Below are positions 1,321 to 20,800 of a stretch of 32,592 nt of DNA, piece after piece. Position numbers and translations under genes: made by a program. This DNA comes from Fidelibacterota bacterium. GTDB lineage: Bacteria; Verrucomicrobiota; Kiritimatiellia; JAIPIQ01. Numbering within the stretch: position 1 is the first letter of the stretch; each line of letters begins with the position of its first letter. The stretch covers positions 1-32,592 of the forward strand of contig JAIPIQ010000005.1 in NCBI GenBank assembly GCA_021734645.1, written 5' to 3'. The notes under the pieces were generated by a model. That model searched no databases and had not been told where the DNA came from. It worked only from the letters and a program-made list of their open reading frames with translations.

Positions 1321-1506
1321 CTGGCAGCGCGGCGACCGAAGACGAGCCTGACACCCGGCGCCCGCGAACCCCTGCGGCGAGGGCACTTGCCCAAGGAGAA
1401 TATTTTTAAAAAAAACGCTTGACAAAATTGACGCAAAGGGTCAAAGTCGCGTTGAACAGTTAATCAGATGGGGCGAAACGGGCCTCACAGAGAAAGGAGC
1501 ACGAGG
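1321..1506 (+). other. Intergenic region with promoter and 5' leader of the PEP-CTERM gene
   Basis: This spacer holds a weak GGGCA/TGCCC inverted repeat at about 1381-1392 followed by an A/T run, possibly the end of the upstream transcript. It also holds an A/T tract, a TTGACA -35 box, and a leader ending in AGAAAGGAG at 1491-1499. No gene is seen in it. Confidence 0.6.
1403..1465 (+). promoter_or_regulatory. Promoter of the PEP-CTERM gene (shared module, copy 1)
   Basis: A T5/A-rich tract (1403-1415) is followed by TTGACA at 1419-1424, a 17-nt spacer and CAAAGT at 1442-1447 in the -10 position. ACAGTTAA lies at 1456-1463, near the expected transcription start. TTGAC (1428-1432) and GTCAA (1440-1444) form an inverted repeat around the -10 region and could be an operator. 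The same elements with the same spacing recur upstream of the first sulfatase. The -35 match is perfect; the -10 match is weak. Confidence 0.65.
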
Positions 1507-2574
1507 ATGAAGGCAGGGCGAATGGCGCGGATCGGGTTGGCGGGCATGTTGTTGTTGGGGCTGGGCGCGGGGCAGAGTCACGCCGACGATTACTGGTGGT
1601 CGGATCCGGGGGTCGCGAATGGCCGGGCGGGCGATGGCGTCTGGGACACGACCACTTTGAACTGGACGAGTGAAGGCACCACGACGGGGGCTGAGACGTT
1701 CTTCACCTGGCGTTCGGATCAGCGGGCGCGGTTCGAGGCCGGAACCGTGACGGTCACCCTCGGGGATGACATTGAATTCACGGATAATGGGTATATGACC
1801 ATCCGCACTTCCTGCACGATTACCAGTCCCAAGGACGTGGACGGCAATTATCTCTATTCCATGAACTTCAATACCGGCACACTCCGCGACATCAACGTGA
1901 TCAATCCCAGCAACGCTCAGATGGACGTTCCGCTTACTGGAGACGATCTGTACTTTTCGTTTCGTTATGGGTGTGATCTGACCGTCGCCGCGCCGATCTT
2001 TGGCGCCACAACGGCGCTGCGAACAGATATATTGAGCACAACAAGTGTCGGGGGCTGCGACTTGTACCTCACGGCGACCAACACCTATGGTGGGGCTGCG
2101 ACCATTGCAGGACGCGTAAACACGTCGGTGACCAACGAATTCCGTGTGGTCCTGAGTGGCTCTCTGGCCAACAGCAAAATCACGTTGGAAAACGCCGGGG
2201 TGCTGCAGGGGTTGGACGCGGACAACCGGGGCTTGCTGAACTTCAACATCGCCGGGGACACCGCAGACCGGATAGACATCTATACGGACAGCCGCTTGGA
2301 ACTGGCGGATCTGAATCTCAAGCTGAATCTGAGCGGTCTGCAGACGCAAACCGAGTACGTCCTGGCGGACTATTCCTTTGGCGGCCAGTACACGGGCACG
2401 GCGTTTGCCTCCGTCACGGGGCTGGATGAGGGCTGGTCCATCGAGTACGCAGGCACGGCGACCAATCCGGATGCCATCGTGCTGGTGATCCCGGAACCGG
2501 GGACCCTGGGGCTGCTGGCGTTGGGCGCGCTGGGCTTCTGGGGCTGGCGTCGGCGGTGGGTCGCGGGGGCGTGA
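1507..2574 (+). CDS. PEP-CTERM sorting domain protein with autotransporter-like beta strands
   Basis: The 355-aa exported protein starts at ATG 1507, 7 nt after the Shine-Dalgarno AAAGGAG (1493-1499); an in-frame ATG at 1468 lies in the leader and is rejected. Residues 1 to about 27 form a signal peptide (MKAGRMARIGLAGMLLLGLG, then GQSHA). The body begins with a WWSDP...WDTTTLNW stretch like the passenger beta-strand repeats of PEP-CTERM and autotransporter proteins, and continues as a low-complexity beta-rich protein. The last 31 residues are a PEP-CTERM signal: PEP, a hydrophobic helix and an Arg cluster (GWRRRW). Family knowledge predicts recognition and cleavage by an exosortase, with release to the cell envelope or exopolysaccharide. 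No exosortase is in the window. The role of the passenger is unknown. Confidence 0.85.
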   Translation: MKAGRMARIGLAGMLLLGLGAGQSHADDYWWSDPGVANGRAGDGVWDTTTLNWTSEGTTTGAETFFTWRSDQRARFEAGTVTVTLGDDIEFTDNGYMTIRTSCTITSPKDVDGNYLYSMNFNTGTLRDINVINPSNAQMDVPLTGDDLYFSFRYGCDLTVAAPIFGATTALRTDILSTTSVGGCDLYLTATNTYGGAATIAGRVNTSVTNEFRVVLSGSLANSKITLENAGVLQGLDADNRGLLNFNIAGDTADRIDIYTDSRLELADLNLKLNLSGLQTQTEYVLADYSFGGQYTGTAFASVTGLDEGWSIEYAGTATNPDAIVLVIPEPGTLGLLALGALGFWGWRRRWVAGA

Positions 2575-2903: not shown

Positions 2904-2970
2904 TTTTTTTAAAATGCCGCTTGACAAGTTTCGCGGGAGAGCGCAAGCTGCCGCTGGACAGTTAAACAGG
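2904..2970 (+). promoter_or_regulatory. Promoter of the sulfatase operon (shared module, copy 2)
   Basis: T7A4 tract at 2904-2914, TTGACA at 2921-2926, a 17-nt spacer, CAAGCT at 2944-2949 and ACAGTTAA at 2958-2965. ACAGTTAA starts exactly 37 nt after the first base of TTGACA, as in copy 1 (1419 and 1456). The bases just before TTGACA (CGC) and the CAG and G-run after ACAGTTAA also match copy 1. Conserved spacing supports a real regulated promoter rather than a chance TTGACA. Confidence 0.65.
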
Positions 2971-3044: not shown

Positions 3045-4484
3045 ATGATGCCCGCACGTCGCCCGAATGTTTTGATGATCCTGACGGATGATCATGCCGC
3101 GCACGCCTTGAGCTGCTACGGCAGCCGAATCAATACGACCCCCCACCTGGACCGGATCGCGGCGGGGGGGATGCGCTTCGACAACTGTTTCTGCACGAAT
3201 TCGATCTGCGCGCCGAGCCGGGCGTCCATCCTGACGGGCACGTATCCGCACGTGCATGGAGTGACGACTCTCTGTCCGCCTTTTGACAATCGGTTGGAGA
3301 CCTTTCCGAAGGTGCTGCAACGGCATGGTTACCGGACGGCGTTGTTTGGGAAGTGGCATCTGGGCGAGGGGCCGGAGCACCGGCCGACGGGTTTTGATGA
3401 CTGGGCGGTGCTGCCGGGGCAGGGGCGTTATTTCAATCCGATTTTTCTGGAGCCGGGGGCGGACGGGGAGGAGACGCGGGGGGTGAAGCGCGGGTACGTG
3501 ACGGACGTGATCACGGACCTGGCGCTGGACTGGCTGCGGGGGCGGGACGCGCAGCAGCCATTCTGTCTGCTGGTGCATCACAAGGCGCCGCACCGGCCCT
3601 GGCTGCCGGACGAGCGCCATGCGCACCTGTACCTGGACGAAACGGTGCCCGAGCCGGAGACGTTGCTGGACGACTACCGGAACCGGGGTGCGGCGGCGGC
3701 GGCGGCGCACATGCGGGTGGGCGTGCACATGACCATGCGCGATCTCAAGTGCGAGGTGCCGGTCGAGTTTCCCGAGGACGAGCTGCGGCGTTTTGCGTAT
3801 CAGCGTTATATCAAGGACTACCTGCGGGTGGTGGCCAGCGTGGACGACAATGTCGGCCGGCTGCTGGATTACCTGGATGAGGCGGGGTTGGCGGAAGACA
3901 CGGTGGTGGTCTACAGCTCGGACCAGGGGTTTTTCCTGGGCGACCACGGCTGGTACGACAAGCGCTTCATGTACGAGGAATCGCTGCGGATGCCGTTTCT
4001 GGTGCGCTATCCGCGCGAGGTGGCGGCGGGGACGGTCAACGGCGATATTGTCACGAACGTGGATTTTGCGCCGCTGTTCCTGGATTTGGCCGGGATCCCG
4101 GCGCCGGCCGGGATGCAGGGTCGGAGTTTCCGTCCGCTCCTGCGGGGCGAGACGCCAGCGGACTGGCCGCAAGCGATGTACTACCGGTACTGGGCGCACA
4201 ACACCCCGAGTCATCACGTCCATGCGCATTACGGCATCCGCACCCGGGCATTCAAACTGATCTATTATTACGGCGTCGGCAGCGATCTGCCCGATGCCAA
4301 CGGCGAGCCGACCCCGCCGGAGTGGGAATTGTTCGACTTGCGCACCGATCCGCGCGAGCTGAACAACGTCTACCACGACCCGGCCTATGCGGCGGTGGTG
4401 CGGGAGCTGACGGCCGCACTCGAGCGTTTGCAGCGGGAAGTGGGGGATACGCCGGTCGGCCCGTCCACGGGTGCCGGGACATGA
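3045..4484 (+). CDS. Type I (formylglycine) sulfatase
   Basis: The 479-aa product has the arylsulfatase fold signatures. Metal ligands DD are at 15-16. The formylglycine motif CAPSR has the modified Cys at 55 and Arg at 59, followed by ASILTG. The GKWH sulfate-binding motif is at 102-105 and the second metal pair DQ at 293-294, with Lys306. It hydrolyses a sulfate ester after maturation of Cys55 by a formylglycine-generating enzyme, which is not in the window. The overall pattern resembles SulfAtlas S1_11-like glycan sulfatases, but the substrate is not certain. The start is ATG 3045 (AGGAG at 3035-3039); a longer frame from 2982 runs through the leader. No clear signal peptide is seen. Its stop overlaps the next gene (ATGA at 4481-4484). 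Residues 216-221 are six Ala encoded by (GCG)6. Confidence 0.92.
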   Translation: MMPARRPNVLMILTDDHAAHALSCYGSRINTTPHLDRIAAGGMRFDNCFCTNSICAPSRASILTGTYPHVHGVTTLCPPFDNRLETFPKVLQRHGYRTALFGKWHLGEGPEHRPTGFDDWAVLPGQGRYFNPIFLEPGADGEETRGVKRGYVTDVITDLALDWLRGRDAQQPFCLLVHHKAPHRPWLPDERHAHLYLDETVPEPETLLDDYRNRGAAAAAAHMRVGVHMTMRDLKCEVPVEFPEDELRRFAYQRYIKDYLRVVASVDDNVGRLLDYLDEAGLAEDTVVVYSSDQGFFLGDHGWYDKRFMYEESLRMPFLVRYPREVAAGTVNGDIVTNVDFAPLFLDLAGIPAPAGMQGRSFRPLLRGETPADWPQAMYYRYWAHNTPSHHVHAHYGIRTRAFKLIYYYGVGSDLPDANGEPTPPEWELFDLRTDPRELNNVYHDPAYAAVVRELTAALERLQREVGDTPVGPSTGAGT

Positions 4485-7400
4485 AGCGGTTGTTCCGTGG
4501 AGTTGACAGGTCCCGGCGTGTGTGGGCGGGCCTGGCGCTGCTGGCGGGTCTGGCGGCGGATCCGTTGCGGGCCGTCGAGCTGCAGTATCCCCTGGCGGGC
4601 AATCTCGATCCGGGGCAGGGGACGATTGAGCTGTGGGTCCGGCCGGATGTGGATGCCCTCGAGGATCCCGGCCGGTTTTATGTACACTACCCGGTTTCAG
4701 TGCGGTGCGACGACGGTTCGGCATTGTCCCTGTTCTGGAGTCACAGCCTCGGGTATCGCGTCTCGGCCAGCCGGGCGGGCGAGGCGGTGCTCAATACGCC
4801 CGCGATGCGTCCGGTCGTACGCACCTGGGTGCGCGCCGGCACGACCGACGCCCTCGCGCCGGGCCGCTGGCATCACGTCGCAGTCACCTGGCAGGGCAAC
4901 GAACTGGCGATTTATTTCAACGGCGAGCGGGTGGCCTACACCGCCGCCAGCGCGCCCATGGTCCTGACCGATGCCGGCACGCTGCGCATCGGCACCGGCG
5001 AGAGCCGGATCGCGGTGGCGAATCTCGTCGTGTCGGGCATTGCGCGTTCGGCGGACGACCTGCGCGCGCGGCCGGCCGGTCCGGCGGTTGTGGACGAGCA
5101 TACGCTGCTACTGGACCGCTTCGCCACGGCCGAGGGGCTGGAAACCCAGGCCGAGATGATTGCCGGGTTCTCGGGCGAGACCGGCGGTCGGCTATCGGGC
5201 ACGGACTGGGTCAGCGTCGCGGGTCCTTTCGGTGGGCGGGCCTTGCAACTGTACCGCGAGCCTGGGGCGGCCGATGCGGCGCCCGAACCGCCGACGGCGG
5301 AGGCGGCGCCCGTCCGCCAGACGCCCGAAGCATTCGCGGGCCTCCGGCAGTTCGAGCAACCGCTGCTCGCGGTGCCGGCGAACTCCGCGGCAATTCGGCT
5401 GGATGGTGTGATCGAGGAGGACGAGTGGGCCGATGCCTCGCTCGTGAGCGGCTTTGTCCAGGCGGCCTTGTACAGCGAAACCGGCGGGCGGGATGTCTTT
5501 CTCATGCCCGGCGAGCACCGGATCTGGCTGAAGAGCGATGGGGCTTTTCTAAACGTCGGGTTCCAATTCGCCGGGCCGTTCCCGGACGACGCGGACCTTT
5601 TTGAATTGTGTTGGCTCGCGCCCGGCGGGGATAACCATGCCCTGACTGCCGACCGTTCGGGGCGCCTGCGCCACCGGGTTGTTTCCGCTGACAGTCGCGC
5701 GTCGGCCGCACCGGGCGCCGCCGAGGTGGGGGAATACCGCACGCAGGCGCTCGACGAAACCTGGAGTGGTGAGCTGCGCCTGGACCTGGCGCGCCTGGGA
5801 ATAGCGCCACCGCAGGCCGGCGAAAGCTGGCCGTTGGCGGTGGGGCGACGGAATCCGAAGACCGCGCGCAGCGGCTGGAGCTATCTCGGCGATGGGGAAC
5901 AGCGGCCCGAGACGTACGGCCGGATCGTCTTCACCGAGGGACTGGCGGTGCGGATTGAACGCCTGGGCGGCCTCGTCCGCAACCGGTTCGGCGCGGTCTT
6001 CGAGTGGGTGAACAAGGGTGAGCGCGCCCATACGCTCCGCCTCGAGACGGGCACCGGGCGGCTGGGGCAGGAAAGCCCGCACCGGTTGCGCCTGCCGGAC
6101 TTCCGCGCGGGCATGGCTTTCGAAGAAGAAACCCTGTTTATCGAGGACTACCGGCGCGGCGCGCAGGAAATCCCGCTGCCGCCGGGCAGCCGTGTGCGGA
6201 CGGTGGTCAGCCAGCCGATCCGTCCCGGCGTCGCCGGAATTTTCGAGTACGCGCTCGAAGCGGACGACCAGCGGCTGGCGGCCGGCACGGTGCTCTTCCG
6301 GAACCCGCGGGTATCCCTTTATCCGGTCGAGATCGCCAAGGCCCTGATCACCGAGGGGCAGGTCCGGGTCACGCTGCGGCGGGGGGCGCTGACCGGGGAA
6401 AAGGAAATCCGGCTGGTGCTTGAACAGGACGGCCGGGTGCTCGATGCGCAGACCCGGACGGTTGGCCCCGAAGACGTGGTTTTCACCCTGAACGTGGAAG
6501 CCTACGCGCCCGGTGACTATACGCTGGCCATCGCCGGCGCGCGGGGCGAGGAACGTGTGCCCCTGCGGTTGCCCGAACCACCGGTCTGGCTGGGGAATCC
6601 CCTGGGACTGGACCCCGCAACGGTGCCGCCGCCCTGGACCCCGCTCGAACTTTCCGACGATGGCCGGCGCGTGACCGCCGGCTTCAAGGCGCTGGATTTT
6701 GCGGGCGGCCTGCCGCTGCCTTCGGCCATCCGGGTCTTTGACCAGGCCCTGCTGGCGGCGCCGATCCGCCTGGTCGTGGATGACGCCGGCGGCCGTCGCG
6801 CGCTGAACGCCGGCGCCCTTGCCGTGCGCGAACAAGGCCCGGGCCGGGCGGTCTATACCAGCCAGGTCGCCGACCAGGCCACCCGCATCTCCGCGAAGGT
6901 CCAAGTCGAGTTCGACGGTTTTACCTGGGTCGAACTGGCGCTCGAACCGGCCGGGACCCTGCGGGAATTCACGCTCGAGATTCCCCTGCGGGCGGAGGTG
7001 GGCCGATTCTATACCAAGTTGTATGAGGGGCTCCCGCGGCCGGTTGGAAAGTATGCCTGGGAAGAGCGGGTCTGGGCGGGCGCAATTCCGGAGGAGGGGA
7101 TGCGCTTGGGATTCTGCGCCGCGGTGTGGGTCGGGGCGCCCGGCGGCGGCCTCGAGTGGCTCACCGAATCCAACCGCAACTGGCATAACCGGGAGCACGA
7201 AACGCACGCCATCGAAATCCTCCGGGAACCCGGCATCACGCTCCTGCGCATCCGGTTTGTGGATGTGCCGGTGGAGAGCGCCGAACCGCTCGAGTATGCC
7301 TTCGGCCTGACGCCCACCCCGATGCGCGACAACCGCACGGCCCTGAACTACTACCGGGATATCGCCGAGGTGGGCTGCGGCAAGTTTCATGCGAGCGGTG

Positions 7401-9385
7401 ATTGGGAAAGACGGTTTGTGGCGGGGGAACGGGAAAGTCCTTCCGCCCCCGGCGGGCGCGACCTGGGGTTCTGGTACTATGGCCGTCCCGCGCCCGCGCA
7501 TTTCGCCCGCGGCGTGGTCGCGGTCTATCCCCTCCTCGAAAATTTCGACCCCCGCGCGGGAACCATCGAGTTTCGGGTTCGCGAGGAGGCGGATTGCGCG
7601 CCGGGGGAGCTGGACCTGATGTGGCTGGATCTGGGGCCGGGCCAGGGGCTTCACATGGCCTGGGGCAGCGCGGACTGGGCGGCGCCCGGGCGCGCCCTGC
7701 GGCTGGCGGCCTACGAAGCGCCCGGCCGGGAACCCGTGATCTGGACCGCCCAGACGCCAGCGTGGGAACCCGGAATCTTCCGCCACCTGGCGTTGACCTG
7801 GGAGCGCGAGGCTGACCGGACGCGCCTGAAGCTGTACGGCGAGGGCCGACTGCTGGCCGAAGGCACGACCGCGCTCGATCCGGCCGCCGGGAATCCGCGC
7901 GACCGGCGCCTGTTCCTGGGCGGAAATACCCGGGCCGCCTTCGCCGAGCTGCGGATTTCCGCGCGGCCCCGGTCGGCCTGGGAACTGGACCGCCCGCCCG
8001 CCCGGGACGCGGAAACCCTGCTGCTCGACCGCTTCACCGGCGGGTTCACGCCCAACGACTACCGCCAGACCCGCGCCGAGGTAACCTCCGGCGCCAGCGC
8101 GGAAACGGGCGGCTGGGTGGACCTCTGGGCCGAATTCGTGCCGGGGCCCTTCGGTGGGGCGCTCCGGCTTTCCACCACCCGGGAACGGACGCTTTTCGAG
8201 ATCAACCAGGCCCTGGGTGCGCAGACGTTCTACGGCCGGCATATTGACCGATTCCACGCGCTCTGGGCGCCGCAGGGCCCGGCCCTCGATGCCGCGGCCA
8301 CCGCCTGGGCCCGGTCCGTTGACGACGCCGGCGCGCGCTCGAAGTTCTATTTCGGCAAGCTCATTTCCCCCGAGGATCCCTACTGGGATGACTACGGCGC
8401 CGAACTGGCCCTGAGCCCGTTGCGGCCCAGCATCAATAACTTCGTGCTGTGCCCGAACGGCCCCGGCGAGGATTACTTTGTCTGGGCCACGGCGCAGATG
8501 CTCAATCGGTACGGCGCCGGCGGCGTACACATGGACTATGGCAACGTCTGGCCCTGCAACCATGTCGGCCACGGCTGCGGCTGGCAGGACGAGAGCGGCG
8601 AGATCCGGACCACCTTCCCCATGCTGGCCCATCGGCGGATGTACTGGCGCTTATATCGCCTGATTCACGGTCGGCCGGACCGCACCGGCACGCTCAAGAT
8701 TCACAATTCCGATGGCATGCCCTATGCGGCGATCGGCATGGCGGACTACGTGGTCGGCGGCGAAATGGAGAACTTCATCCGCCGCGAGGGGCAGATCGGG
8801 GACTGGTTGTCCTGGGACCGGTACCTGGCGTTTTACAGTGAACGCACGACGGGTGTGCCGCTGCGCACCAAGGATGTCCCCGCCGTCTGGCCCCTGTTGA
8901 TGGGCGACGGCACAGATGCCAATGCCTCCCGCATGGGGCGGGTCTTTGCGCTCATCCGCGACGGGCAGCTCGCGCCGTTCAGAACCCCGGACACGGCCGG
9001 AGCCGGCGGCCCCGGACGCGGCACGGAGCTGTTGTATTATCCCGCGTTCAGCGATTTCGCCGGCAGCCGTATGCTCGGGTTCTGGGAACCCGAAGTGTAC
9101 GCGCGCATCCTGCCGGAGGACGACTATGCCGCCCGGTACCTGCGAGTGAACCTGTTCCTGCATCCGGATGGGGAGCAGATCCTGGCGGTGCTCGGCAACC
9201 TGGCCAACGAGGACCGGGAGGTCACGCTCCGCTTCGACCTGGAGGCCTTCGGCTTTCGGGCCGAAAACACGGCAGTCCGGGACGTGTATACCCGCGAAGT
9301 GCTGGCCTACGATAACCTGCGCTTGACCGCCCCCCGCGAGGAAGTGCGCCTGCTGCTGCTGCGAAGAAGGAAGGAAACCCCATGA
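4481..9385 (+). CDS. Large secreted LamG / CBM9-like / DUF6067-like putative glycan hydrolase
   Basis: The 1634-aa product begins with a signal peptide (about 1-31, hydrophobic AGLALLAGLAADPLRA). A LamG/concanavalin-like domain (about 35-195; RWHHVAVTW, IYFNGERVAY) is followed by an LLLDRF linker. A CBM9/DOMON-like domain lies at about 295-490 (LDGVIEEDEWADA). A long beta-rich region contains a DUF6067/GH123-like block at about 770-970, a second LamG domain lies at about 1005-1170, and a probable TIM-barrel C-terminal domain covers about 1250-1550. The barrel contains VHMDYGNVWPC (Asp1352) and GHGCGWQDE, which the paralogue at 10916 also has. It probably binds and cleaves a polysaccharide outside the cytoplasm. 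The catalytic residues and substrate are inferred. The start ATG 4481 and the stop (overlapping ATG 9382) are both 4-nt overlaps, so it is coupled to a sulfatase on each side. Confidence 0.75.
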   Translation: MKRLFRGVDRSRRVWAGLALLAGLAADPLRAVELQYPLAGNLDPGQGTIELWVRPDVDALEDPGRFYVHYPVSVRCDDGSALSLFWSHSLGYRVSASRAGEAVLNTPAMRPVVRTWVRAGTTDALAPGRWHHVAVTWQGNELAIYFNGERVAYTAASAPMVLTDAGTLRIGTGESRIAVANLVVSGIARSADDLRARPAGPAVVDEHTLLLDRFATAEGLETQAEMIAGFSGETGGRLSGTDWVSVAGPFGGRALQLYREPGAADAAPEPPTAEAAPVRQTPEAFAGLRQFEQPLLAVPANSAAIRLDGVIEEDEWADASLVSGFVQAALYSETGGRDVFLMPGEHRIWLKSDGAFLNVGFQFAGPFPDDADLFELCWLAPGGDNHALTADRSGRLRHRVVSADSRASAAPGAAEVGEYRTQALDETWSGELRLDLARLGIAPPQAGESWPLAVGRRNPKTARSGWSYLGDGEQRPETYGRIVFTEGLAVRIERLGGLVRNRFGAVFEWVNKGERAHTLRLETGTGRLGQESPHRLRLPDFRAGMAFEEETLFIEDYRRGAQEIPLPPGSRVRTVVSQPIRPGVAGIFEYALEADDQRLAAGTVLFRNPRVSLYPVEIAKALITEGQVRVTLRRGALTGEKEIRLVLEQDGRVLDAQTRTVGPEDVVFTLNVEAYAPGDYTLAIAGARGEERVPLRLPEPPVWLGNPLGLDPATVPPPWTPLELSDDGRRVTAGFKALDFAGGLPLPSAIRVFDQALLAAPIRLVVDDAGGRRALNAGALAVREQGPGRAVYTSQVADQATRISAKVQVEFDGFTWVELALEPAGTLREFTLEIPLRAEVGRFYTKLYEGLPRPVGKYAWEERVWAGAIPEEGMRLGFCAAVWVGAPGGGLEWLTESNRNWHNREHETHAIEILREPGITLLRIRFVDVPVESAEPLEYAFGLTPTPMRDNRTALNYYRDIAEVGCGKFHASGDWERRFVAGERESPSAPGGRDLGFWYYGRPAPAHFARGVVAVYPLLENFDPRAGTIEFRVREEADCAPGELDLMWLDLGPGQGLHMAWGSADWAAPGRALRLAAYEAPGREPVIWTAQTPAWEPGIFRHLALTWEREADRTRLKLYGEGRLLAEGTTALDPAAGNPRDRRLFLGGNTRAAFAELRISARPRSAWELDRPPARDAETLLLDRFTGGFTPNDYRQTRAEVTSGASAETGGWVDLWAEFVPGPFGGALRLSTTRERTLFEINQALGAQTFYGRHIDRFHALWAPQGPALDAAATAWARSVDDAGARSKFYFGKLISPEDPYWDDYGAELALSPLRPSINNFVLCPNGPGEDYFVWATAQMLNRYGAGGVHMDYGNVWPCNHVGHGCGWQDESGEIRTTFPMLAHRRMYWRLYRLIHGRPDRTGTLKIHNSDGMPYAAIGMADYVVGGEMENFIRREGQIGDWLSWDRYLAFYSERTTGVPLRTKDVPAVWPLLMGDGTDANASRMGRVFALIRDGQLAPFRTPDTAGAGGPGRGTELLYYPAFSDFAGSRMLGFWEPEVYARILPEDDYAARYLRVNLFLHPDGEQILAVLGNLANEDREVTLRFDLEAFGFRAENTAVRDVYTREVLAYDNLRLTAPREEVRLLLLRRRKETP

Positions 9386-10860
9386 ATCCACAGACTTCCG
9401 TCCGCCGACCGAATCTCCTGGTGATCTGCGACGACCAGCATTCGGGGCTCTGTTGCGGGTTCCAGGGGCATCCCCTGGCGCGTACGCCGCACCTCGATGC
9501 CCTGGCCGCCGCGGGCACGAACTTCCGGACCTGTTACTCGAACAGCCCGGTCTGTGTCGCCGCGCGCGCCGCGCTTTTCACGGGGCGCTTCCCGCACGAG
9601 GTCGGCGCCTACGACAACGCGGCCCCGTTCCAGGGCCAGGTGCCGACCTTTGCCCAGGCCGCGCGCGCGCAGGGCTATCTCTGCCGGGCGTCCGGCAAGC
9701 TGGATTTCTGGACGGGGAAGGATTACGGGTTCGAAGAGGACGTGGTCTTTCACGGCCACGACGTCAGCCCCGATATCACCGCGCTGTTCCGGAACCCGCT
9801 CTGCTACCGGGAAGACGCCCGTCTGCAGCAGGGCGGCCGGATCCGGGCAGACGACGAACCGTGGCAGGACCGGGCGACCGCCGACCGGACGTTGCGGTTC
9901 ATCCGTGAGCGGGCGGCCGAGCCTGGGCGGCCCTGGCTGGCCTATACCGGCTGGGGCTATCCCCACAATCCGTACCGGGCCTCCCGGGCCATGCTCGAGC
10001 AGATCCCGCTGGAGGCGGTCGAGCTGCCGCACCTGGCGCCGGACTGGTGCGAACACGAGCACCCGGTCATGCACCTGCGGCGGTTTCACGGCCGCGGGGC
10101 GCGCCAGGCGGAACCCGCCGCCCTCCGGCTGGCGCGCGCCTGCTACTACGCCATGATCACGGAAGTGGACGCCCTGGTCGGCGATTTGCTCCGCGCCCTC
10201 GAAGAAACCGGTCAGCGCGAAAACACGATCATCCTTTTCACCTCGGACCACGGCGACATGCTCGGCGAGCAGGGGCTCTGGCACAAGAACGCGCCCTACG
10301 ACCCGGCGGCCCGCGTGCCGCTGGTGGTGGCCGGGCCCGGCATCCCCGCGGGTCGCACCGTCGCGAACCCCGTCTCCCAGGTGGACGTCTGCGCCACGCT
10401 GCTCGATTTGGTCGGCGCGCCGCCGGATTCGTCCGCCCGCGGCCAGTCTCTCCTGCCGCTGGCGCGCGGCGACCGGCACGACCATCCGCCGGCCTACATG
10501 GAACTCAATACCGAAGGGCTGATCACAGGCGTCTTCACCTTGGTCCGCGACGAATGGAAATACAATTACTACGTGGATTACCCCCCGCAGTTGTTCAACC
10601 TGCGCGACGACCCCTGGGAACAAAACAACCGCGCCGAGGATCCCGAGACCGCGCCCCTCCGCGAGGAGCTGCACCGCCACCTGCTGGCTCTGGTCAATCC
10701 CGAACAAGTCCACGAGGCGGCCTTTGCCGACCAGGCCCGCCGGCGGCACGAGTGGTACGGCGGCAAAAGCGCACCGGAAATTGTCCAGGCCCTCGTCAGT
10801 CGCCTCGGCCCGGAGCAGTCGCAACGCTTCGCCGCGCGGATAGTAGAGGGCAGGGGCTAG
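9382..10860 (+). CDS. Type I sulfatase with altered sulfate-binding motif
   Basis: The 492-aa product has metal ligands DD at 17-18 and a formylglycine motif of the form C-x-A-x-R (CVAAR; Cys58, Arg62) followed by AALFTG. A second metal pair DH lies at 289-290 with GLWHKN (Lys302). The usual GK-x-H motif reads GKLDFW, so Lys106 is kept but the His position is Asp108. It has a standard sulfatase length and a C-terminal LFNLRDDPWEQNN segment typical of the family. No signal peptide is visible, which raises the question of where the two sulfatases act. The start ATG 9382 overlaps the upstream stop. Expected chemistry is sulfate ester hydrolysis on an oligosaccharide; the substrate is unknown, and the Asp108 change could alter specificity. 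Confidence 0.88.
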   Translation: MNPQTSVRRPNLLVICDDQHSGLCCGFQGHPLARTPHLDALAAAGTNFRTCYSNSPVCVAARAALFTGRFPHEVGAYDNAAPFQGQVPTFAQAARAQGYLCRASGKLDFWTGKDYGFEEDVVFHGHDVSPDITALFRNPLCYREDARLQQGGRIRADDEPWQDRATADRTLRFIRERAAEPGRPWLAYTGWGYPHNPYRASRAMLEQIPLEAVELPHLAPDWCEHEHPVMHLRRFHGRGARQAEPAALRLARACYYAMITEVDALVGDLLRALEETGQRENTIILFTSDHGDMLGEQGLWHKNAPYDPAARVPLVVAGPGIPAGRTVANPVSQVDVCATLLDLVGAPPDSSARGQSLLPLARGDRHDHPPAYMELNTEGLITGVFTLVRDEWKYNYYVDYPPQLFNLRDDPWEQNNRAEDPETAPLREELHRHLLALVNPEQVHEAAFADQARRRHEWYGGKSAPEIVQALVSRLGPEQSQRFAARIVEGRG

Positions 10861-10895
10861 CCCCTAACCCCTAACCCCTAACCCCTAGCCCCTAA
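10861..10895 (+). repeat. Tandem CCCCTAA heptamer, five units
   Basis: Five 7-bp units immediately follow the sulfatase TAG: CCCCTAA three times, one CCCCTAG, then CCCCTAA. The minus strand reads TTAGGGG, with five G4 runs that could form a G-quadruplex. The units place stop codons in all three frames on each strand. It fills most of the 55-bp gap before the next gene. Confidence 0.95.
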
Positions 10896-10915
10896 CGACC
10901 CCAGGAACTCAAAAC

Positions 10916-13900
10916 ATGAAAACTGCCCTGCACACCCTGTCCATTGGAACCGCGTTGATCTGGATGCTGGTCGGCGCACAGGCGGCCGCCGCCGCGGAGG
11001 CCGAGGACGCCCCTCCGTACCGCTACCTGACGATCAGCCTGCCGAAACTGGCGCAGGAACCGGTCATTGACGGCGCGATTGATCCGCACATGCTCGAGCA
11101 GGCCGCCATGGGCCCGCGTTTCACGATTCCCGGCCGCGATGATGCGCCGGAAGACCGGCTGACCTCGGCCCGGATGCAGACCTACTTCAGTTATACGGGC
11201 AGGGGGCTGTACCTGGCCTGGCGCATGGAACGCCCCGACGGTTACGAACGGCCCGTGGCCACTGTCCTGGCGCGCGAAGGCGCCGCCCAGGGCGGCGTGG
11301 GCTCCTTATGGCGCAGCGACGATATTTTCGAATTGCAGATTGATGCCGTCAAGGCGAACCCCGACGCGCGGGACTACTACTTCATGTGGAATTTTGCCGG
11401 CACCCGCTGGGGCCGTATGATGTATCCGCAGGTGCTCCAGCCCTGGCTGCCCGAGTGGCAGGTGGCCAGCAACGAAGCCTACGAACCCGGCTGGGAGGGC
11501 GAAGCGTTCTTCCCGTTCGACATTTTTCCGGACGTGGATCCGCCCGCGTCGGGCGAAGCCTGGCGGGTATTCTTCTTCCATAACCGCCTGACCCCGTACC
11601 CCCGGCTCGAGTTATTCTCCTGGCCCTACGGGCGGCCCGCCCACACCACGCGGGATTACGCCCGCCTGATCTTCGCCCCGGCGGACGGCGTCTATACCCG
11701 CATCGTTGACAGCGGCCTGCTGGCCGACCGCCCGGGCGCCAGCGGCCTGCTGTTCGAACTGGTCAATCCCGCGGACGCCGAACGGCGGGTGACGCTCCAG
11801 GCGGATCTGTATCGCCGCAAGGACGATGCGCCGGCCGGCACGAGCTACCTGCGCGAGTTCGAACAGACCCGCGACAAGCCCGGCACCGCCCAGGCGGGCG
11901 TCATTGACCTGTATATCCCCGACGACCAGCTCTCGGCGCAGATTCGCGCCGAGTACTACGACGTGGTCCAGACGATCCACGAGACCGTGACGCTCGCGCC
12001 GGGCGCCCGGCTCGCGCGGGAGCTCGTCACGGAATCAACTGAGCCGGCGCAGTACCTGGTCATCCACGAAGTGCGCTGCGCCGACACCGGCCGGTTGATC
12101 GCCGGTGCGCCGCTCCAGTACGAGGTTCCCGATCCGATGGCGGTGAAGACGACCTTGTTGCCGCTCGTGTCCCGGCGGCTCGACGTGGAAGTGGACCTGC
12201 GGTATGTCCCCGGGTTCCGGGAGCCCGGCGTGCTGAGCGCCACCCTGTCCGGCCCCGGCGGAACCGTCTTCGAGCAGCAGTGGCCCGCAATCTCGAATGA
12301 CACCCGCACCCAGCGCTTTTCCATCCCCCTGGCGGATACACCGCCCGGCCCCCAGACCCTGCGCGTGGTCGCCGCCAATGCCGCGGGCCAAACGCTCATC
12401 GCCCGGGAACGGACGATCGAGCTGCCCGAAACGCCCGACTGGTTCCGTGACCCCGTGGCGGCGGCGCCCTTCATCCCCGAGCCCTGGACGCCGATCGCGC
12501 TCGACGGCCGCCGGCTGTCCCTGCTCATGGGCTCCTATACCTTCGCCGAGGGCCCCTTCCCGGAAAGCATTGACGTGCAGGCCATCGAGGAGGCTGCGGA
12601 GAAATCCCTGACCCGCCGGGCGCCGGCCCTGCGCGGGCGCGCCGACCACGCCGAGCTCGCCTGGGAACCGGCGTCTTTCGACATGCAGCGCGAGCACGAG
12701 GGGCGCGTCGTCATCACGACGGAGTCCTTCGCCAATAATCTGGCCCTCCGCGGACGCACTACCGTGGAATACGACGGGTTCATCCGTTTCGATCTCACGC
12801 TGGCGCCGCGGAATCCCGACGAGCCCGTGGACCTCGAGGCGCTGTTCTTCGAAATCCCGATGCAGCCGGAATTCTCGCGTCTCTATTCCCGCGGCAAGGT
12901 CATGGACGGTCCCGACGGGTTCCTGGTGGCCGGCGAGGTGCCCGCCGAAGGGCTGCGGCACCCGTGGACGAACACGTCCTGGATCGGCAACGAACAGCGC
13001 GGCCTGATCTGGTTCGCCGAGAATGTCAAAGGCTGGCGGCTCGACCCGGCCTCTCGCGACGAGGCCATCGAACTGGCGCCCGGCGCCGCCGGCGCCGATC
13101 TGCGGATCCACCTGGTGAAGGGGCAAGCTCCGCTGCGCCTCGACGCGCCCAGGGAAATCACGTTCGGGATCATGTTCACCCCGCCGTCGCCCCTGTACCC
13201 GGAACTGATCCGCAAGTATCAGCGTAACGTCGCCGCGTTCACGGAACCGATTTCCGACGAGCAGTTTGCCGCGCGGGAAAAACGGATGGAGCAGGAGGCG
13301 CGCGTGAACACCTTCTGCTTCTTCGATTATTTCGGCGTGCAGCCCAAGGGCTGGCCCGAAATGACGGATCCGGAACAGATCGCCCAGCACCGCCGCCGCG
13401 GGGATATCATCCATGCGCTGGGCGGCCGGGTCATCGCCTACGCCGGGTGGTGGATGCCGCGCGATGCCGCCGTCTTTCAGGACTTCGGGATGGAAATGAT
13501 CGCCCAGCCGATCACTCCGGGCGGTCTCAACACCCTGTATTGCTGTTACAACACGCCGTACACCGAGATCTGGACCCATCTCTGGAAGCAGCGCATTCAC
13601 GATACCGGGGTGGACGGGTATCGCCTGGACGCCAGTTTCGAACCGACTCGCTGCGCGAGCCTCGAACACCGGGGGCACGGCTCGGAGTGCGGCTGGATTG
13701 ACGACGACGGCAAGGTCCAGCCGAGTTACGGGATGTTCGCCGCCCGCGAGGCGTCCAAACGGACCTACAGCCTTTTCCACGGGCTCGAGCGCAAAGGCGG
13801 CCTGTGCGGGCATCACCACAATTTCGGCCTGCCCGATCCGCGCGCGTCGCACTGCGACTTCTTTCTTAATGTCGAGGGGCCGGAGCGGGTGGTGCTGACC

Positions 13901-14956
13901 CTTCGGGACTGGCCCCTGGCCTACTGGCGCGCCCGGGTCATGAGCGAGCAGCACGGGACCTGGGTCATCTACGCGGGGAAGATTCCCAACCTCGGCTACA
14001 ACAGCATCTATGGCCTGGCGCTGCTGCACAACACCATCCCGCGCTCCCTGCCGGGCAATGTGCTCTATGCCGGCAGCAACTATGGCCGGGGGCTGAGCCC
14101 CGGAACCGTCGCCAATGTCTGGAAAAGCCTCGAATGGTTCGAGGCCCACCAGCCCCGGCAGCGGCAACTGCTCGGGTACTGGAACAATGAACACGTGGTC
14201 CGCTCAAGCGAACCGGACAGCGTCAAAATCACCCTGGTGAACCGGCCGGGCCAGAAGCTGCTGCTGACGGCGCTCAACCTCGACCGCCAGGCCCGTCGCG
14301 CCCGCGTGACCCTCGATCTCGACGCGCTCGGGTTCGGCGGCGAAACGGTTCACGTCATGGACATCGTCGAACCCTGGCGGCCGCTGGTCCTCGAAGACGG
14401 GGCGCTTGATCTGACCTTCCTGCCGGAGGGCTACCGCTACCTGGCGCTCTCCCGCGAACCCTTCAGTCCCGAGGACGCCCTGCCGGACATTCCCCGGCCC
14501 GTGGGCGAAAACCTGTTCGCCGCGCCGCGCGCGGCCGACTGGAACCTGGCGGCCCTGCCGCACCGGGGGTCCGTAGCCGGCCCGGCCCAGGTTGGGCCAG
14601 AAGGGCTCCGGCTCGAGTCCGGCGGCGACGACGGCGAAACGCTGCTGTCATTCAACCTCGATGCCGAACCCGGCCGGGATTATCTCCTGACCGCCCACGT
14701 GCGCCTCGAACCCCGGAACCCGCCGTACTGCTCCGTGAACGTGCGCCAGGGCCTGCGCCTGCAAATCCTCGAAACCGAAGCCCCGGGCGGCCACGCGCGT
14801 TTCCAGGAGCTGGGTAGCCAGTACCTGGAAGGCGAATCGTATCCGCTCACGCTGCTGTTCCGCTGCGAGGGCGCCGGCGCCCGGGTCCTGTTCAGACTGA
14901 CCGGCGAGACCGCCGCCGTCATCGAGGGCCTTGACTTCCGGGAGGTGGCGTGGTGA
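10916..14956 (+). CDS. Secreted DUF6067-like putative glycan hydrolase, paralogue of the 4481 gene
   Basis: The 1346-aa product has a signal peptide (about 1-27, ending VGAQAAAAAEA). A CBM9-like domain lies at about 45-255 (PVIDGAIDPHML). A beta-rich middle contains the DUF6067-like block (EFSRLYSRGKVMDGPDGF; SWIGNEQRGLIWFAE), followed directly by the probable TIM barrel. In the barrel, GVDGYRLDASFEP (Asp905) and RGHGSECGWIDDDGK match the paralogue, and HHHNFG follows. A C-terminal beta-sandwich ends the protein. It lacks both LamG domains of the paralogue. The start is ATG 10916 with AGGA at 10903-10906. It is probably a secreted glycoside hydrolase acting on the same glycan, but on a different linkage or chain length. 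The activity is inferred; Asp905 is only a candidate catalytic residue. Confidence 0.75.
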   Translation: MKTALHTLSIGTALIWMLVGAQAAAAAEAEDAPPYRYLTISLPKLAQEPVIDGAIDPHMLEQAAMGPRFTIPGRDDAPEDRLTSARMQTYFSYTGRGLYLAWRMERPDGYERPVATVLAREGAAQGGVGSLWRSDDIFELQIDAVKANPDARDYYFMWNFAGTRWGRMMYPQVLQPWLPEWQVASNEAYEPGWEGEAFFPFDIFPDVDPPASGEAWRVFFFHNRLTPYPRLELFSWPYGRPAHTTRDYARLIFAPADGVYTRIVDSGLLADRPGASGLLFELVNPADAERRVTLQADLYRRKDDAPAGTSYLREFEQTRDKPGTAQAGVIDLYIPDDQLSAQIRAEYYDVVQTIHETVTLAPGARLARELVTESTEPAQYLVIHEVRCADTGRLIAGAPLQYEVPDPMAVKTTLLPLVSRRLDVEVDLRYVPGFREPGVLSATLSGPGGTVFEQQWPAISNDTRTQRFSIPLADTPPGPQTLRVVAANAAGQTLIARERTIELPETPDWFRDPVAAAPFIPEPWTPIALDGRRLSLLMGSYTFAEGPFPESIDVQAIEEAAEKSLTRRAPALRGRADHAELAWEPASFDMQREHEGRVVITTESFANNLALRGRTTVEYDGFIRFDLTLAPRNPDEPVDLEALFFEIPMQPEFSRLYSRGKVMDGPDGFLVAGEVPAEGLRHPWTNTSWIGNEQRGLIWFAENVKGWRLDPASRDEAIELAPGAAGADLRIHLVKGQAPLRLDAPREITFGIMFTPPSPLYPELIRKYQRNVAAFTEPISDEQFAAREKRMEQEARVNTFCFFDYFGVQPKGWPEMTDPEQIAQHRRRGDIIHALGGRVIAYAGWWMPRDAAVFQDFGMEMIAQPITPGGLNTLYCCYNTPYTEIWTHLWKQRIHDTGVDGYRLDASFEPTRCASLEHRGHGSECGWIDDDGKVQPSYGMFAAREASKRTYSLFHGLERKGGLCGHHHNFGLPDPRASHCDFFLNVEGPERVVLTLRDWPLAYWRARVMSEQHGTWVIYAGKIPNLGYNSIYGLALLHNTIPRSLPGNVLYAGSNYGRGLSPGTVANVWKSLEWFEAHQPRQRQLLGYWNNEHVVRSSEPDSVKITLVNRPGQKLLLTALNLDRQARRARVTLDLDALGFGGETVHVMDIVEPWRPLVLEDGALDLTFLPEGYRYLALSREPFSPEDALPDIPRPVGENLFAAPRAADWNLAALPHRGSVAGPAQVGPEGLRLESGGDDGETLLSFNLDAEPGRDYLLTAHVRLEPRNPPYCSVNVRQGLRLQILETEAPGGHARFQELGSQYLEGESYPLTLLFRCEGAGARVLFRLTGETAAVIEGLDFREVAW

Positions 14957-14962
14957 GCTGCG

Positions 14963-15000
14963 CGGGGATATGATCTTGAAGCGGAAAGAGCCGATCCCCG
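14963..15000 (+). promoter_or_regulatory. Stem-loop just upstream of a ribosome binding site
   Basis: CGGGGAT at 14963-14969 pairs with ATCCCCG at 14994-15000 (7 bp, 24-nt loop). The 3' arm directly abuts the GGAG ribosome site (15001-15004) of the next gene. It may control translation or RNA stability, but could also be chance in GC-rich DNA. Confidence 0.3.
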
Positions 15001-15010
15001 GGAGAGAGGC

Positions 15011-16258
15011 ATGAAATCGAGTGGTGAGCGTGATATCCTGCGCGACCTGGTGCGCCGGTACCTTGAGATTGCCCGGCATCCCCGCCAGGAAACCGTGCGG
15101 GAGAAATGGCGCGGCCATAACAGTCTCGAGCCGGACGATGGCCCGCCACCCGTGCTGGTCCAGTTCGGTCTCTACAACGTCTGGTGCCGCGCATTCATCG
15201 AAGCCCAATGCCGCTGTAGCGACCCGACGCTGCGGAACATGGAGCGCGGCCTGCGCCTGAAGCTTTTCGCCGCTACCCTGGATGACGACACGGTCTTCGA
15301 GCCCTGGTGGTCGGTCGGGGCCGTTCACGTCCTGCCGCCGGACGGTTTGTGGGGCCTGCGCGAGGGCCGCGTCGCCAGCGGCGGGGAGGGCGGCGCATTT
15401 GCCATGGATCCGCCCCTCAAGGCGCTCGAGGACGTCGCGCGGCTGACGGTTCCGCAACACCGGATTGATGAAGCGGCCACTGCCGCGCGCCTCGGGCGGC
15501 TCGAGGATGCGGTCGGGGACCTGATCACGCTGGACCGGACCCGCGGTTCCGCCTACGGCCATTTCAACGGCGATATCTCGACGCGACTGGCCCAGTTGCG
15601 CGGGCTCGAGCAGACGATGCTGGATATGTACGAGAACCCGGAATGGCTGCATGGCCTCCTGGCGTTCATGCGCGACGGCATCCTGCGCGCGCAGCAGCAG
15701 GCGGAGGACGCCGGCGACTACAGCCTGACCTGCCACGATAACCAGGGCATGCCCTACAGCCGGGAACTGGAAGATCCCCGGCCCAACAGCGGGCCGCGCG
15801 CGCGCCGCCAACTCTGGGGCTTCATGGCCGCCCAGGAATTCACCCTGATTTCACCGCGGATGCACGAGGAGTTCCTGCTGCGTTACCAGCGCCCCATCAT
15901 GGCGCCCTACGGCCTGACGCACTACGGCTGCTGCGAAAACCTGACCGCCAAGATTGACCTGCTGCGGACCATCCCCAACCTGCGGCGCATCGCCGTGACC
16001 CCCAGCGCCGACCTGGCGCGCTGCGCCGAACAGATCGGCCGCGACTACGTGATCTCCTGGCGGCCCAACCCGACCGACATGGTCTGCGCCGGCTTCGACG
16101 CCGACCGGATCCGCCGCATCGTGCGCGCCGGCCGCGCGACCTGCCGGGCCAACGGCTGCGTCGTGGATCTCAGCCTCAAGGATATCGAAACCGTCGAGGA
16201 CGATCCTGGCCGACTCGCGCAATGGGTCCGCCTCGTGCGTGCCGCCTGGGCGGACTGA
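15011..16258 (+). CDS. Uroporphyrinogen-decarboxylase (URO-D) superfamily protein
   Basis: The 415-aa cytoplasmic protein resembles the URO-D/corrinoid-methyltransferase (MtaA, CmuA) superfamily often annotated in glycan clusters of PVC bacteria, rather than a haem-pathway HemE. Visible features are VLVQFGLYNVW near the N terminus, a TCHDNQGM stretch, and YGLTHYGCCENL with His304, Cys307 and Cys308, which could form part of the zinc site methyltransferase members use to activate a thiol or methyl acceptor. No other haem gene is near. The start is ATG 15011, 6 nt after GGAG. It lies 54 bp after the hydrolase on the same strand and probably belongs to the same transcript. A role in demethylating or otherwise processing methylated sugars is conceivable but unproven. 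Confidence 0.75.
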   Translation: MKSSGERDILRDLVRRYLEIARHPRQETVREKWRGHNSLEPDDGPPPVLVQFGLYNVWCRAFIEAQCRCSDPTLRNMERGLRLKLFAATLDDDTVFEPWWSVGAVHVLPPDGLWGLREGRVASGGEGGAFAMDPPLKALEDVARLTVPQHRIDEAATAARLGRLEDAVGDLITLDRTRGSAYGHFNGDISTRLAQLRGLEQTMLDMYENPEWLHGLLAFMRDGILRAQQQAEDAGDYSLTCHDNQGMPYSRELEDPRPNSGPRARRQLWGFMAAQEFTLISPRMHEEFLLRYQRPIMAPYGLTHYGCCENLTAKIDLLRTIPNLRRIAVTPSADLARCAEQIGRDYVISWRPNPTDMVCAGFDADRIRRIVRAGRATCRANGCVVDLSLKDIETVEDDPGRLAQWVRLVRAAWAD

Positions 16259-17816: not shown

Positions 17817-20800
17817 ATGCAGTTCCTGAAATGTATCGGTTGCCGGGTTGCGCCGCTCTTGCTGGCGGCCGCGCAACTCGCGCCCGGCGCAACCATCCGC
17901 ATCGCCGGTGGAACGTGGCAGGCGGCTTCGCATCTCAGGGGTACGAATTTGGTTGTCGAGGCCGCCGGGCGCCTGAGTGGAACCGGCACGGTGCATATGG
18001 CGGCGACGATTCGCGGTGAGGTGTCGCCGGGGCGCGGCCCGGCCGATGTCGGCACGCTGTCGTTCACCGATGCGCTCACGTTTGACGGCGGGCAGTTTGC
18101 GTGCCATGTGGCGGCCTTCGATGCCGCGGATCTGTTGTCGGTGGCGGGCCGGGTGTCCGGGGCGGCCAGGGTGGTCACATCGTGCGCGGGCGGCGTGGCG
18201 CCGGACCAGCTTGTGATTGTGTCGGGGGCGGCGAACAGCGACTACAGTCTGTTCGATGTGGCGCCCGCGACCGGCTGGGTCCTGGGCCAAAGCGGCGCAT
18301 TGAACCTGCACATCAGCGGCCTTCCCGGCATCAGCGTGCTGGGGACGAACGGCGCGGTAATCGCCAGTGCCGCAGCGCCCAGTCCCGTGACGGGGACGGA
18401 CTTCGGGCATGTGCATTGGGGTAGGACGGTGACCAATACCTTCAGCATCACCAATGGGGGAATCGCCACGCTGACGATTCAGTCGTCCCATCTGACCGAG
18501 CAGGCGAATTTCTCCATGGCCGGCATTCCGGCCACCTTGCCCGCGGGCGGTGTGAGCAACTTCAATGTGGTCTATGCGCCGATGGCCGTTGGATCTCATG
18601 CGGCGGCCGTGATCATCAGCAATAGCGCGCCGGACAGTCCGTTCACAGTCAATCTGGCGGGAGCGTGCTATGCGCTCTCCACAAACATTGGACCTTTCGC
18701 CGGCGGCAACACCATCACGATCACGAACGGCCATTTCGGTGCCATTACTAATGTGCTGGTGGACCTTGTTGACGTCATTGACCTTGTGGACAGTGGGGTC
18801 AATTGGGTCACTGTGGTCATGCCCGCGCTGGGCGCGGCAGGCCCGGTCGACATCATCATCCAAACCTCCGACAACGGCGACACCTTCCTGTACAATGCCT
18901 ACACGTACAATCCCGCGGGCATCATTACGAACGTATCGCCGGCCTTGGGTTCGTGGACCGGCGCCGTCCCGCTGGTGATTGAGGGATCGAATCTGGGCAA
19001 CGGCGCGGATATCACCAACGTGACCCTGTGCGGCGTGGCGGCGACGATCAGCAGTCAGGCCACCGAGCGGGTCTGGATCGTGGCCGCAGCGTCCGGCGCC
19101 GGCGCGCTGACCGGCGATGTGGTTGTCTCTTCCACCAGCTTCGGCACGACGACCAGATCCAACGCCTTTGAATACACCAAAGAGGCGCAGGCGATCACGT
19201 TCGATCCCATCGCGGCCAAGACGTACGGCGATGCGGCTTTTGATCCGGGCGCGACGGCCAGTTCCGGCCTTGCCGTCAGCTACAGTAGTTCGGATGCGAA
19301 TGTGGCCACCGTGTCTGTGCACGATATCTACATCACCGGCACCGGCGTGTGCGACATCGTCGCTTCACAGGCGGGGAACAGTTTCTACCATGCCGCGCCG
19401 AGCATCACCAACAACCTGGCCGTCACGAGGAAGGAGCTGAGCGTAACCGGCGCCGTGGCCTCGAACAAGGTCTACGATGCCACGGCCACAGCCTGGCTCA
19501 GCGGCGCGACGCTCCAGGGCGCCGTTCCCGGCGATGAGGTCACGCTCGCCAATGCCGCCACCGGCACGTTCGCGCAGGCGACAACCGGCACAGCCATCGG
19601 CGTCACCACGCACATGACCCTCACAGGCACACACGCCCCACAGTATCATCTGCGGCAACCGACCGGACTGTCCGCCGACATCACTGCGCGTGAGTTGACG
19701 GTCACCGGCGCGATGGCGCAGAGCAAGGTGTACGACGGCACCAAGGCCGCCGCGATCACCGGTGCGGGACTGTCCGGCGTGCAGGGCAGCGACGTGATCA
19801 CGTTGGGCAACCACACTACTGGCACATTTGCAAATGCCAACGCAGGTACAGGCGTAACCGTCCACACCCACATGACCATCAGTGGCGATCAGGTTGCTAA
19901 TTACACACTCACTCAGCCTACGCTGTCCGCCGACATCACCAAGGCGGATCAGGCGATCACATTCGACGCGCTGAGCGATGTATTCTGGACGAACGTAGTG
20001 GATGTCGCGGCCACGGCCGACAGCGGGTTGGCCGTGAGCCTGGAAGTGGTCAGCGGACCGGCGAGCCTGACGGATCCGACCAGTCCGACGACGTTGACGA
20101 TGGATGGGTACGGCGCGGTGCGGGTGGCGGCCTCCCAGGCGGGCGACACGAACTGGAACGCGGCGGTGACGGTGACCAACACGTTCAACGCGCTCGGACC
20201 GCAATTCACGGTCCTGGGCACCAACGGGGTGGTGGTTGTTCATGACAACGTCGCTGCCTTGCCGGACGGCACGGACTTCGGTTCGGCGCGGATCGGGCTC
20301 GAGACGGTGACCCATGTCTTCGCGATCACCAACGCGGGCACAGCCGAGGCGACGGTCCTGGGCATTGTCACCAACGGACCGCAGGCCGGGTCGTTCGCGA
20401 TCCTGAATCCGCCGACGGCGGTACCCATGAATGGCGCGGTCGAGTTTTCGGTCGCGTTTGATCCGCAGGCGGGGGAGACCAACCGGGCGAGCCTGGTCTT
20501 CACGTTCGACGGCACGAACGCGCCTTACCAGGTAAACATGGCGGGCTTTGGGTACGGCGGGGCGCTCGGGTTTACGTCGAACGGGCTGAGCTTCAGCGGG
20601 ACGTACGTCGGCGCTGATCCGGTCAACCAGACCTTGATGCTGACCAACAGCGGGTCGAGCGCGATCAACTGGACAAATGTGATCACGTACGGGGTCGGCG
20701 CGACCGATTGGCTGACGGTGACCCCGACCGATGGGAACCTGCTGAAACAAAGCGCGGCGGAGCTGGCCGCGGCGGTGAGCCTCGCCGGGCTCAATGCGGG

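Follow-up and report, generated by a model that had tools for sequence, protein, structure and literature searches.

The stretch of DNA analyzed here (the window) comprises 32,592 nucleotides of contig JAIPIQ010000005.1 (assembly GCA_021734645.1, Fidelibacterota bacterium) and carries, at positions 3045-16258, five same-strand (+) open reading frames (ORFs) in the order sulfatase, hydrolase, sulfatase, hydrolase, and uroporphyrinogen decarboxylase (URO-D)-fold protein, designated S1A, GHa, S1B, GHb, and P0005. This cluster is best read as a real sulfated-glycan catabolic operon with predicted intracellular desulfation, activities being assigned by homology and context, because it combines operonic carbohydrate-type sulfatases with exported putative glycosidases, and because the host genome encodes an anaerobic sulfatase-maturating enzyme (anSME). 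With somewhat better than even confidence, it is proposed that the unit serves sulfated-polysaccharide catabolism through external cleavage by GHa and GHb, import of the products, and cytoplasmic desulfation by S1A and S1B. The initial annotation of this region had likewise suggested a cluster for a sulfated glycan; that part stands, while it had been missed that the sulfatases are predicted to be cytoplasmic.

Organization of the cluster and proposed pathway

The cluster begins with S1A (3045..4484, +), a family S1 sulfatase of S1_11-like type, and continues with the exported hydrolase GHa (4481..9385, +), a second family S1 sulfatase, S1B (9382..10860, +), the exported hydrolase GHb (10916..14956, +), and P0005 (15011..16258, +), a member of an uncharacterized family. 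Two 4-nt ATGA overlaps join the first three genes, the S1A stop lying at 4484 and the GHa ATG at 4481 (4481-4484), and the GHa stop at 9385 and the S1B ATG at 9382 (9382-9385); S1B and GHb are separated by 55 nt, and GHb and P0005 by 54 nt. The earlier description of two sulfatases alternating with two large paralogous hydrolases, the first three genes overlapping and a URO-D-like gene completing the set, agrees with the ORFs, coordinates, strand, and families found here. Also confirmed were its statements that the hydrolases are exported and bear glycan-binding-like domains, since both have N-terminal hydrophobic signal-like stretches and a Laminin_G_3 domain occurs in GHa and a CBM9-like region (by eye) in GHb, and that SusC/D, transporter, and regulator genes are absent, none being present among the window genes scanned with Pfam and NCBIfam. 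Genome-wide, a TonB-plug domain was matched once, away from the cluster.

In the proposed pathway, whose enzymatic activities, import, substrate, and order of steps we infer, GHa and GHb would be exported, attach to the glycan by means of lectin-like domains, and cleave it extracytoplasmically, acting as glycosidases that resemble glycoside hydrolase (GH) families GH36 and GH27. Sulfated oligosaccharides or monosaccharides would then be imported by a transporter encoded elsewhere and desulfated in the cytoplasm by S1A and S1B, which anSME would activate in that compartment; the URO-D-like protein may have as its substrate a product further along the route or a decorated one. The operon probably degrades a sulfated fucose- or galactose-type polysaccharide, because S1A relatives sit in fucose-degradation clusters. 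Among the substrates originally put forward, which were guesses, fucoidan-like material fits the S1A orthologue contexts better, and carrageenan and chondroitin fit less well.

Sulfatases, their relatives, and their predicted location

S1A matched the Pfam sulfatase domain (PF00884) with 189 bits, as well as SGSH_C, and its C-A-P-S-R formylglycine (FGly) motif and aligned DD, GK, H, and K motifs are those of an S1 formylglycine sulfatase. Its eight best matches among solved structures had E-values of 1e-106 to 1e-137, led by 5g2v, 7p24, and 7lha, and, judged on these solved homologues, its best whole-length similarity is to S1_11 enzymes. The matches span both N-acetylglucosamine (GlcNAc)-6-sulfatases (5g2v, 7p24) and exo-L-galactose-6-sulfatase (7lha). 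Enzymes of S1_11 recognize their substrates via a His/Asp/Arg triad and accept 6S-GlcNAc and also L-galactose (PMC10154612). The S1_11 sulfatases BT4656, BT3177, and 7lha are the top-scoring solved homologues of S1A, which retains their catalytic motifs but differs in that it and its orthologues with 59-73% identity mostly lack signal peptides and are widespread in Chloroflexota, Latescibacterota, the Planctomycetes-Verrucomicrobia-Chlamydiae (PVC) group, and Paenibacillus.

These orthologues were recovered at 80 loci in a scan of named genomes, their hosts being Chloroflexota, Latescibacterota, Lentisphaerota, Verrucomicrobiota, Poribacteria, Gemmatimonadota, Planctomycetota, Paenibacillus, and others. 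The Cys-type motif is present in 80 of 80, and in most the start lies ~5 residues ahead of PNILFIMSDDH, leaving them mostly without a signal peptide. Eighteen of the loci, mostly from Anaerolineae/Chloroflexota, share MFS- and GH29-family ORFs and an APH-type kinase, accompanied by an aldo/keto reductase in 17 and a GHL6 protein in most. At loci L212 and L226, typing of these ORFs identified both GH29 alpha-L-fucosidases and MFS_1 transporters, and a Lentisphaerales (Lentisphaerota) locus, L206, combines five sulfatase ORFs with DeoR, L-fucose isomerase, and an FGGY kinase. Because of these contexts and the known acceptance of L-galactose in S1_11, a sulfated sugar of the L-fucose/L-galactose series is the most likely predicted substrate of S1A; its S1_11-like homology leaves room for 6-sulfo-GlcNAc as well. 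The possibility that PF01208 genes accumulate around S1A orthologues was considered and rejected (7 of 80 vs. 3 of 40). A true PF01208 URO-D gene lies near a sulfatase on contig C134 of the host genome (L026:8407-9360), and its close relatives occur directly 3′ of S1A orthologues in Latescibacterota/Lentisphaerota loci (L205:3423-4412, L224:11397-12425).

S1B, likewise an S1 formylglycine sulfatase by its motifs, matched PF00884 with 150 bits, and its FGly motif reads C-V-A-A-R; its DD, GK, H, and K motifs could also be aligned, with GK-L-D-F where GK-x-H is expected. A separate sulfatase (L058:684-2165) has S-C-P-A-R at the formylglycine site, possibly of Ser-type, and also GK-L-D in place of GK-x-H.

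The N-termini of both S1A and S1B are too short for a signal peptide. A clear signal-like stretch was found in 1 of the 22 host sulfatases with a readable N-terminus (C125), the other 21 having no clear one, vs. 9 of 14 sulfatases in same-class relatives (Fisher p about 2e-4). Because the operon sulfatases lack signal peptides and a clear one occurs in only 1 of 22 genome-wide, desulfation should, by prediction, be intracellular. The host anSME scored 399 bits, above the cut-off, from which we infer an anaerobic host. On contig C195, a sulfatase adjoins a GH39-like gene, an MmgE/PrpD gene, and a PF01208 gene (L060:441-8302).

Exported hydrolases and the URO-D-like protein

The two hydrolases are paralogous, aligning with about 92-94 bits and ~23% identity. 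GHa consists of an N-terminal LamG domain, a GH123_N-like sandwich, a second LamG-like insert (by eye), and a barrel with conserved Asp and Glu, and GHb joins its CBM9-like N-terminal region to a GH123_N-like sandwich and a GH36/GH27-like barrel. In Pfam, both matched GH123_N (PF19543) partially and neither matched a GH123 catalytic domain. Their scores exceed the curated cut-off of PF19543 but amount to 42-60 bits over fragments of the 969-position model, vs. about 1000-1290 bits for full PF19543 proteins in the class, so that an assignment to GH123 is unwarranted. They represent a divergent family, here termed GHX, with about 18 copies in the host genome and scattered relatives in the class; full-length GHb used as a query in the named genomes gave no matches. 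The about 18 GH123_N-like barrel proteins of the host, a 2.6-Mb bin that is 69% complete, are the most first-look candidates among the class-sample matches listed.

When residues 500-1185 of GHb were modelled with AlphaFold (pLDDT, the predicted local distance difference test, 86), the resulting structure matched the folds of the Flavonifractor plautii GH36-like galactosaminidase (best), GH97, GH27, and GH13 (Foldseek E 1e-22). In profile alignment, D905 falls on the nucleophile position of GH36 and GH13 and matches the Asp of the GH36 KWDMN motif; D905 and E987 (D406 and E488 of the modelled fragment) are invariant in 26 divergent homologues with about 23% identity. Catalytic carboxylates of clan GH-D follow strands beta4 and beta6, and the GHb model is a TIM barrel with D905 after beta4 and E987 after beta6, in line with GH36/GH27-like clan D structure. 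GHa and GHb are probably active enzymes, because this Asp and Glu are invariant and positioned as in clan GH-D. They share with GH36/GH27 glycosidases, including the F. plautii galactosaminidase (8x1b), the barrel, the N-terminal sandwich, and an Asp at the catalytic position after beta4, but differ in their ~12% identity, in a Glu replacing Asp after beta6, and in long N-terminal lectin-like extensions.

P0005, in which no signal peptide was seen, had no Pfam match, PF01208 included. Its predicted structure (pLDDT 94.4) adopts the URO-D fold, the 21 best PDB fold matches all being URO-D or URO-D-like methyltransferases (best E 7e-8). MtaA-type enzymes carry an HxC zinc motif. P0005 thus resembles the uroporphyrinogen decarboxylase/MtaA methyltransferase family in predicted fold, but it differs in lacking a PF01208 match and in having, where HxC is expected, a YGCC motif that is invariant in its aligned 64-member family; it does not show the sequence hallmarks of HemE or of an MtaA/CmuA methyltransferase. 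Homologues occur in 88 of 288 class genomes in varied surroundings. P0005-like genes adjoin sulfatases on three host contigs (C84, C37, and C17); a conserved URO-D-like/sulfatase module as a general rule was dropped, a sulfatase being present in 4 of 60 class-wide neighbourhoods. Adjacency speaks for the cluster membership of P0005 that had been claimed for it, and it is from adjacency that its putative role in a sulfated-glycan system is argued, because its relatives are not specifically tied to sulfatases.

Regulation, alternative explanations, and known systems

A 46-nt promoter-like element, CTTGACA-N31-ACAGTTAA, is located upstream of the sulfatase operon (second copy, 2920..2965, +) and upstream of a PEP-CTERM surface-protein gene outside it (first copy, 1418..1463, +). 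This gene (1468..2574, +; the start may be later) matched PF07589 and TIGR02595. The element has exactly two matches genome-wide, with 0 for the reversed-pattern control; a T/A tract lies 5′ of its copies, and looser forms occur ahead of two other PEP-CTERM-like genes. The sulfatase operon and the PEP-CTERM surface protein are likely co-regulated. A short leader reading frame lies 3′ of the second copy. Genes 3′ of the cluster are seemingly unrelated to it; they comprise one for a large protein with Ig-like repeats, an oppositely oriented V-type ATPase operon, and a dihydrouridine synthase gene. Just downstream, window positions 17817-22529 encode a protein of 1570 aa in which YDG, choice-of-anchor D, and TIG-like domains occur. 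Rfam and tRNA scans gave no matches, and the host bin yielded no 16S rRNA.

Three alternatives to a fucose- or galactose-directed unit were weighed. It is unlikely that the operon instead targets GlcNAc-6-sulfate glycans (mucin or heparan/keratan-type), with S1A acting as a GlcNAc-6-O-sulfatase and GHa and GHb freeing hexosamines in the manner of GH123 or a GH36-like galactosaminidase. Such a target would accord with the S1A homologues of solved structure that score highest, with the top-ranking fold match of GHb, and with the derivation of the PF19543 name from GH123, but the S1A orthologues adjoin genes for GH29 fucosidases and L-fucose isomerase, no hexosaminidase is among the neighbours typed in their loci, and the similarity of GHb to GH123_N is weak and partial, without the GH123 catalytic domain. 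A chance co-location, in which a sulfatase-hydrolase pair and a separate pair with the URO-D-like gene would have different sources and substrates, is also considered improbable: two 4-nt overlaps, the one-strand alternation of sulfatases and paralogous hydrolases over 12 kb, and the specific promoter-like element ahead of the operon argue against it, even though the host genome is rich in both families (24 sulfatase and 23 GH123_N matches), the last two genes are set off by gaps rather than overlaps, and the same gene order was seen in no other genome examined. Least credible, and very improbable, is that S1B is an altered enzyme or one for small sulfate esters such as choline sulfate, rather than a glycan sulfatase. 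Its nearest relatives in NCBIfam and PDB are choline sulfatases, and GK-L-D-F replaces GK-x-H; however, it scored 289.5 bits against a curated cut-off of 433.45 for the choline-sulfatase model TIGR03417, it still has the cysteine of the FGly site as well as the Arg and Lys motifs, and the GK-x-D form is common to S1B and two other sulfatases of the host genome.

Several observations weigh against the preferred reading of a sulfated-polysaccharide operon with cytoplasmic desulfation. The top solved homologue of S1A is a GlcNAc-6-sulfatase, and L-fucose, which lacks a 6-hydroxyl, could not be a substrate of a strict 6-O-sulfatase; the connection to fucose would then mean L-galactose or another regiospecificity. 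The glycosidase activity of GHa and GHb is argued from a modelled fold and two residues. Signal-peptide calls were made by inspecting N-terminal room and hydrophobicity rather than with a trained predictor, host sulfatase L057 is ambiguous, and 6 of the 80 S1A orthologues have a hydrophobic upstream stretch within a longer possible ORF. A formylglycine-generating enzyme (FGE) was not detected in the host genome, which, at 69% completeness, is weak evidence. No relatives of GHX or P0005 occur in the 80 S1A-orthologue loci, the class-wide P0005 neighbourhoods rarely hold a sulfatase, and sulfatases near divergent GHX relatives are not clearly enriched in the class (1.0 vs. 0.7 per 100 kb). A conserved sulfatase/GHX module was accordingly rejected, a sulfatase being found in 3 of 31 divergent GHX neighbourhoods, about background. 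No other genome examined shows the five genes in this arrangement, and the operon appears specific to the host lineage within the genomes compared, in which relatives were sampled at class level with no second genome from the host's own family or order.

Sulfate groups are a main barrier to the breakdown of marine and sediment polysaccharides. If the nearly all-cytoplasmic sulfatases and the cross-phylum fucose-linked group hold true, sulfated sugars would be imported first and desulfated later. A bolder and rather doubtful extension is that GHa and GHb constitute a new GH family (clan-D-like barrel, Asp/Glu, ~18 copies) that would depolymerize sulfated fucan or L-galactan extracellularly and feed desulfation by cross-phylum cytoplasmic sulfatases, with nearly all desulfation following uptake. 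The uncharacterized GHa/GHb barrel family is a concrete target in the search for new glycosidases.

Compared with known systems, the adjacent SusC/SusD pair of Bacteroidota-type polysaccharide utilization loci was not found among the scanned window genes. The sulfatase-rich sets of Kiritimatiellae and other PVC bacteria, as in Pontiella (PMC6388578), resemble the host in their many S1 sulfatases and in anaerobic life, which for the host is predicted from anSME. The uncultured host is itself probably a PVC-type bacterium, judging from its PEP-CTERM proteins, prepilin-like genes, and sulfatase load. In contrast, Pontiella sulfatases mostly have signal peptides (354 of 521 and 339 of 480, or 68-71%), as opposed to 1 of 22 in the host, where the sulfatases are, moreover, interleaved with an uncharacterized exported GH36-like family.
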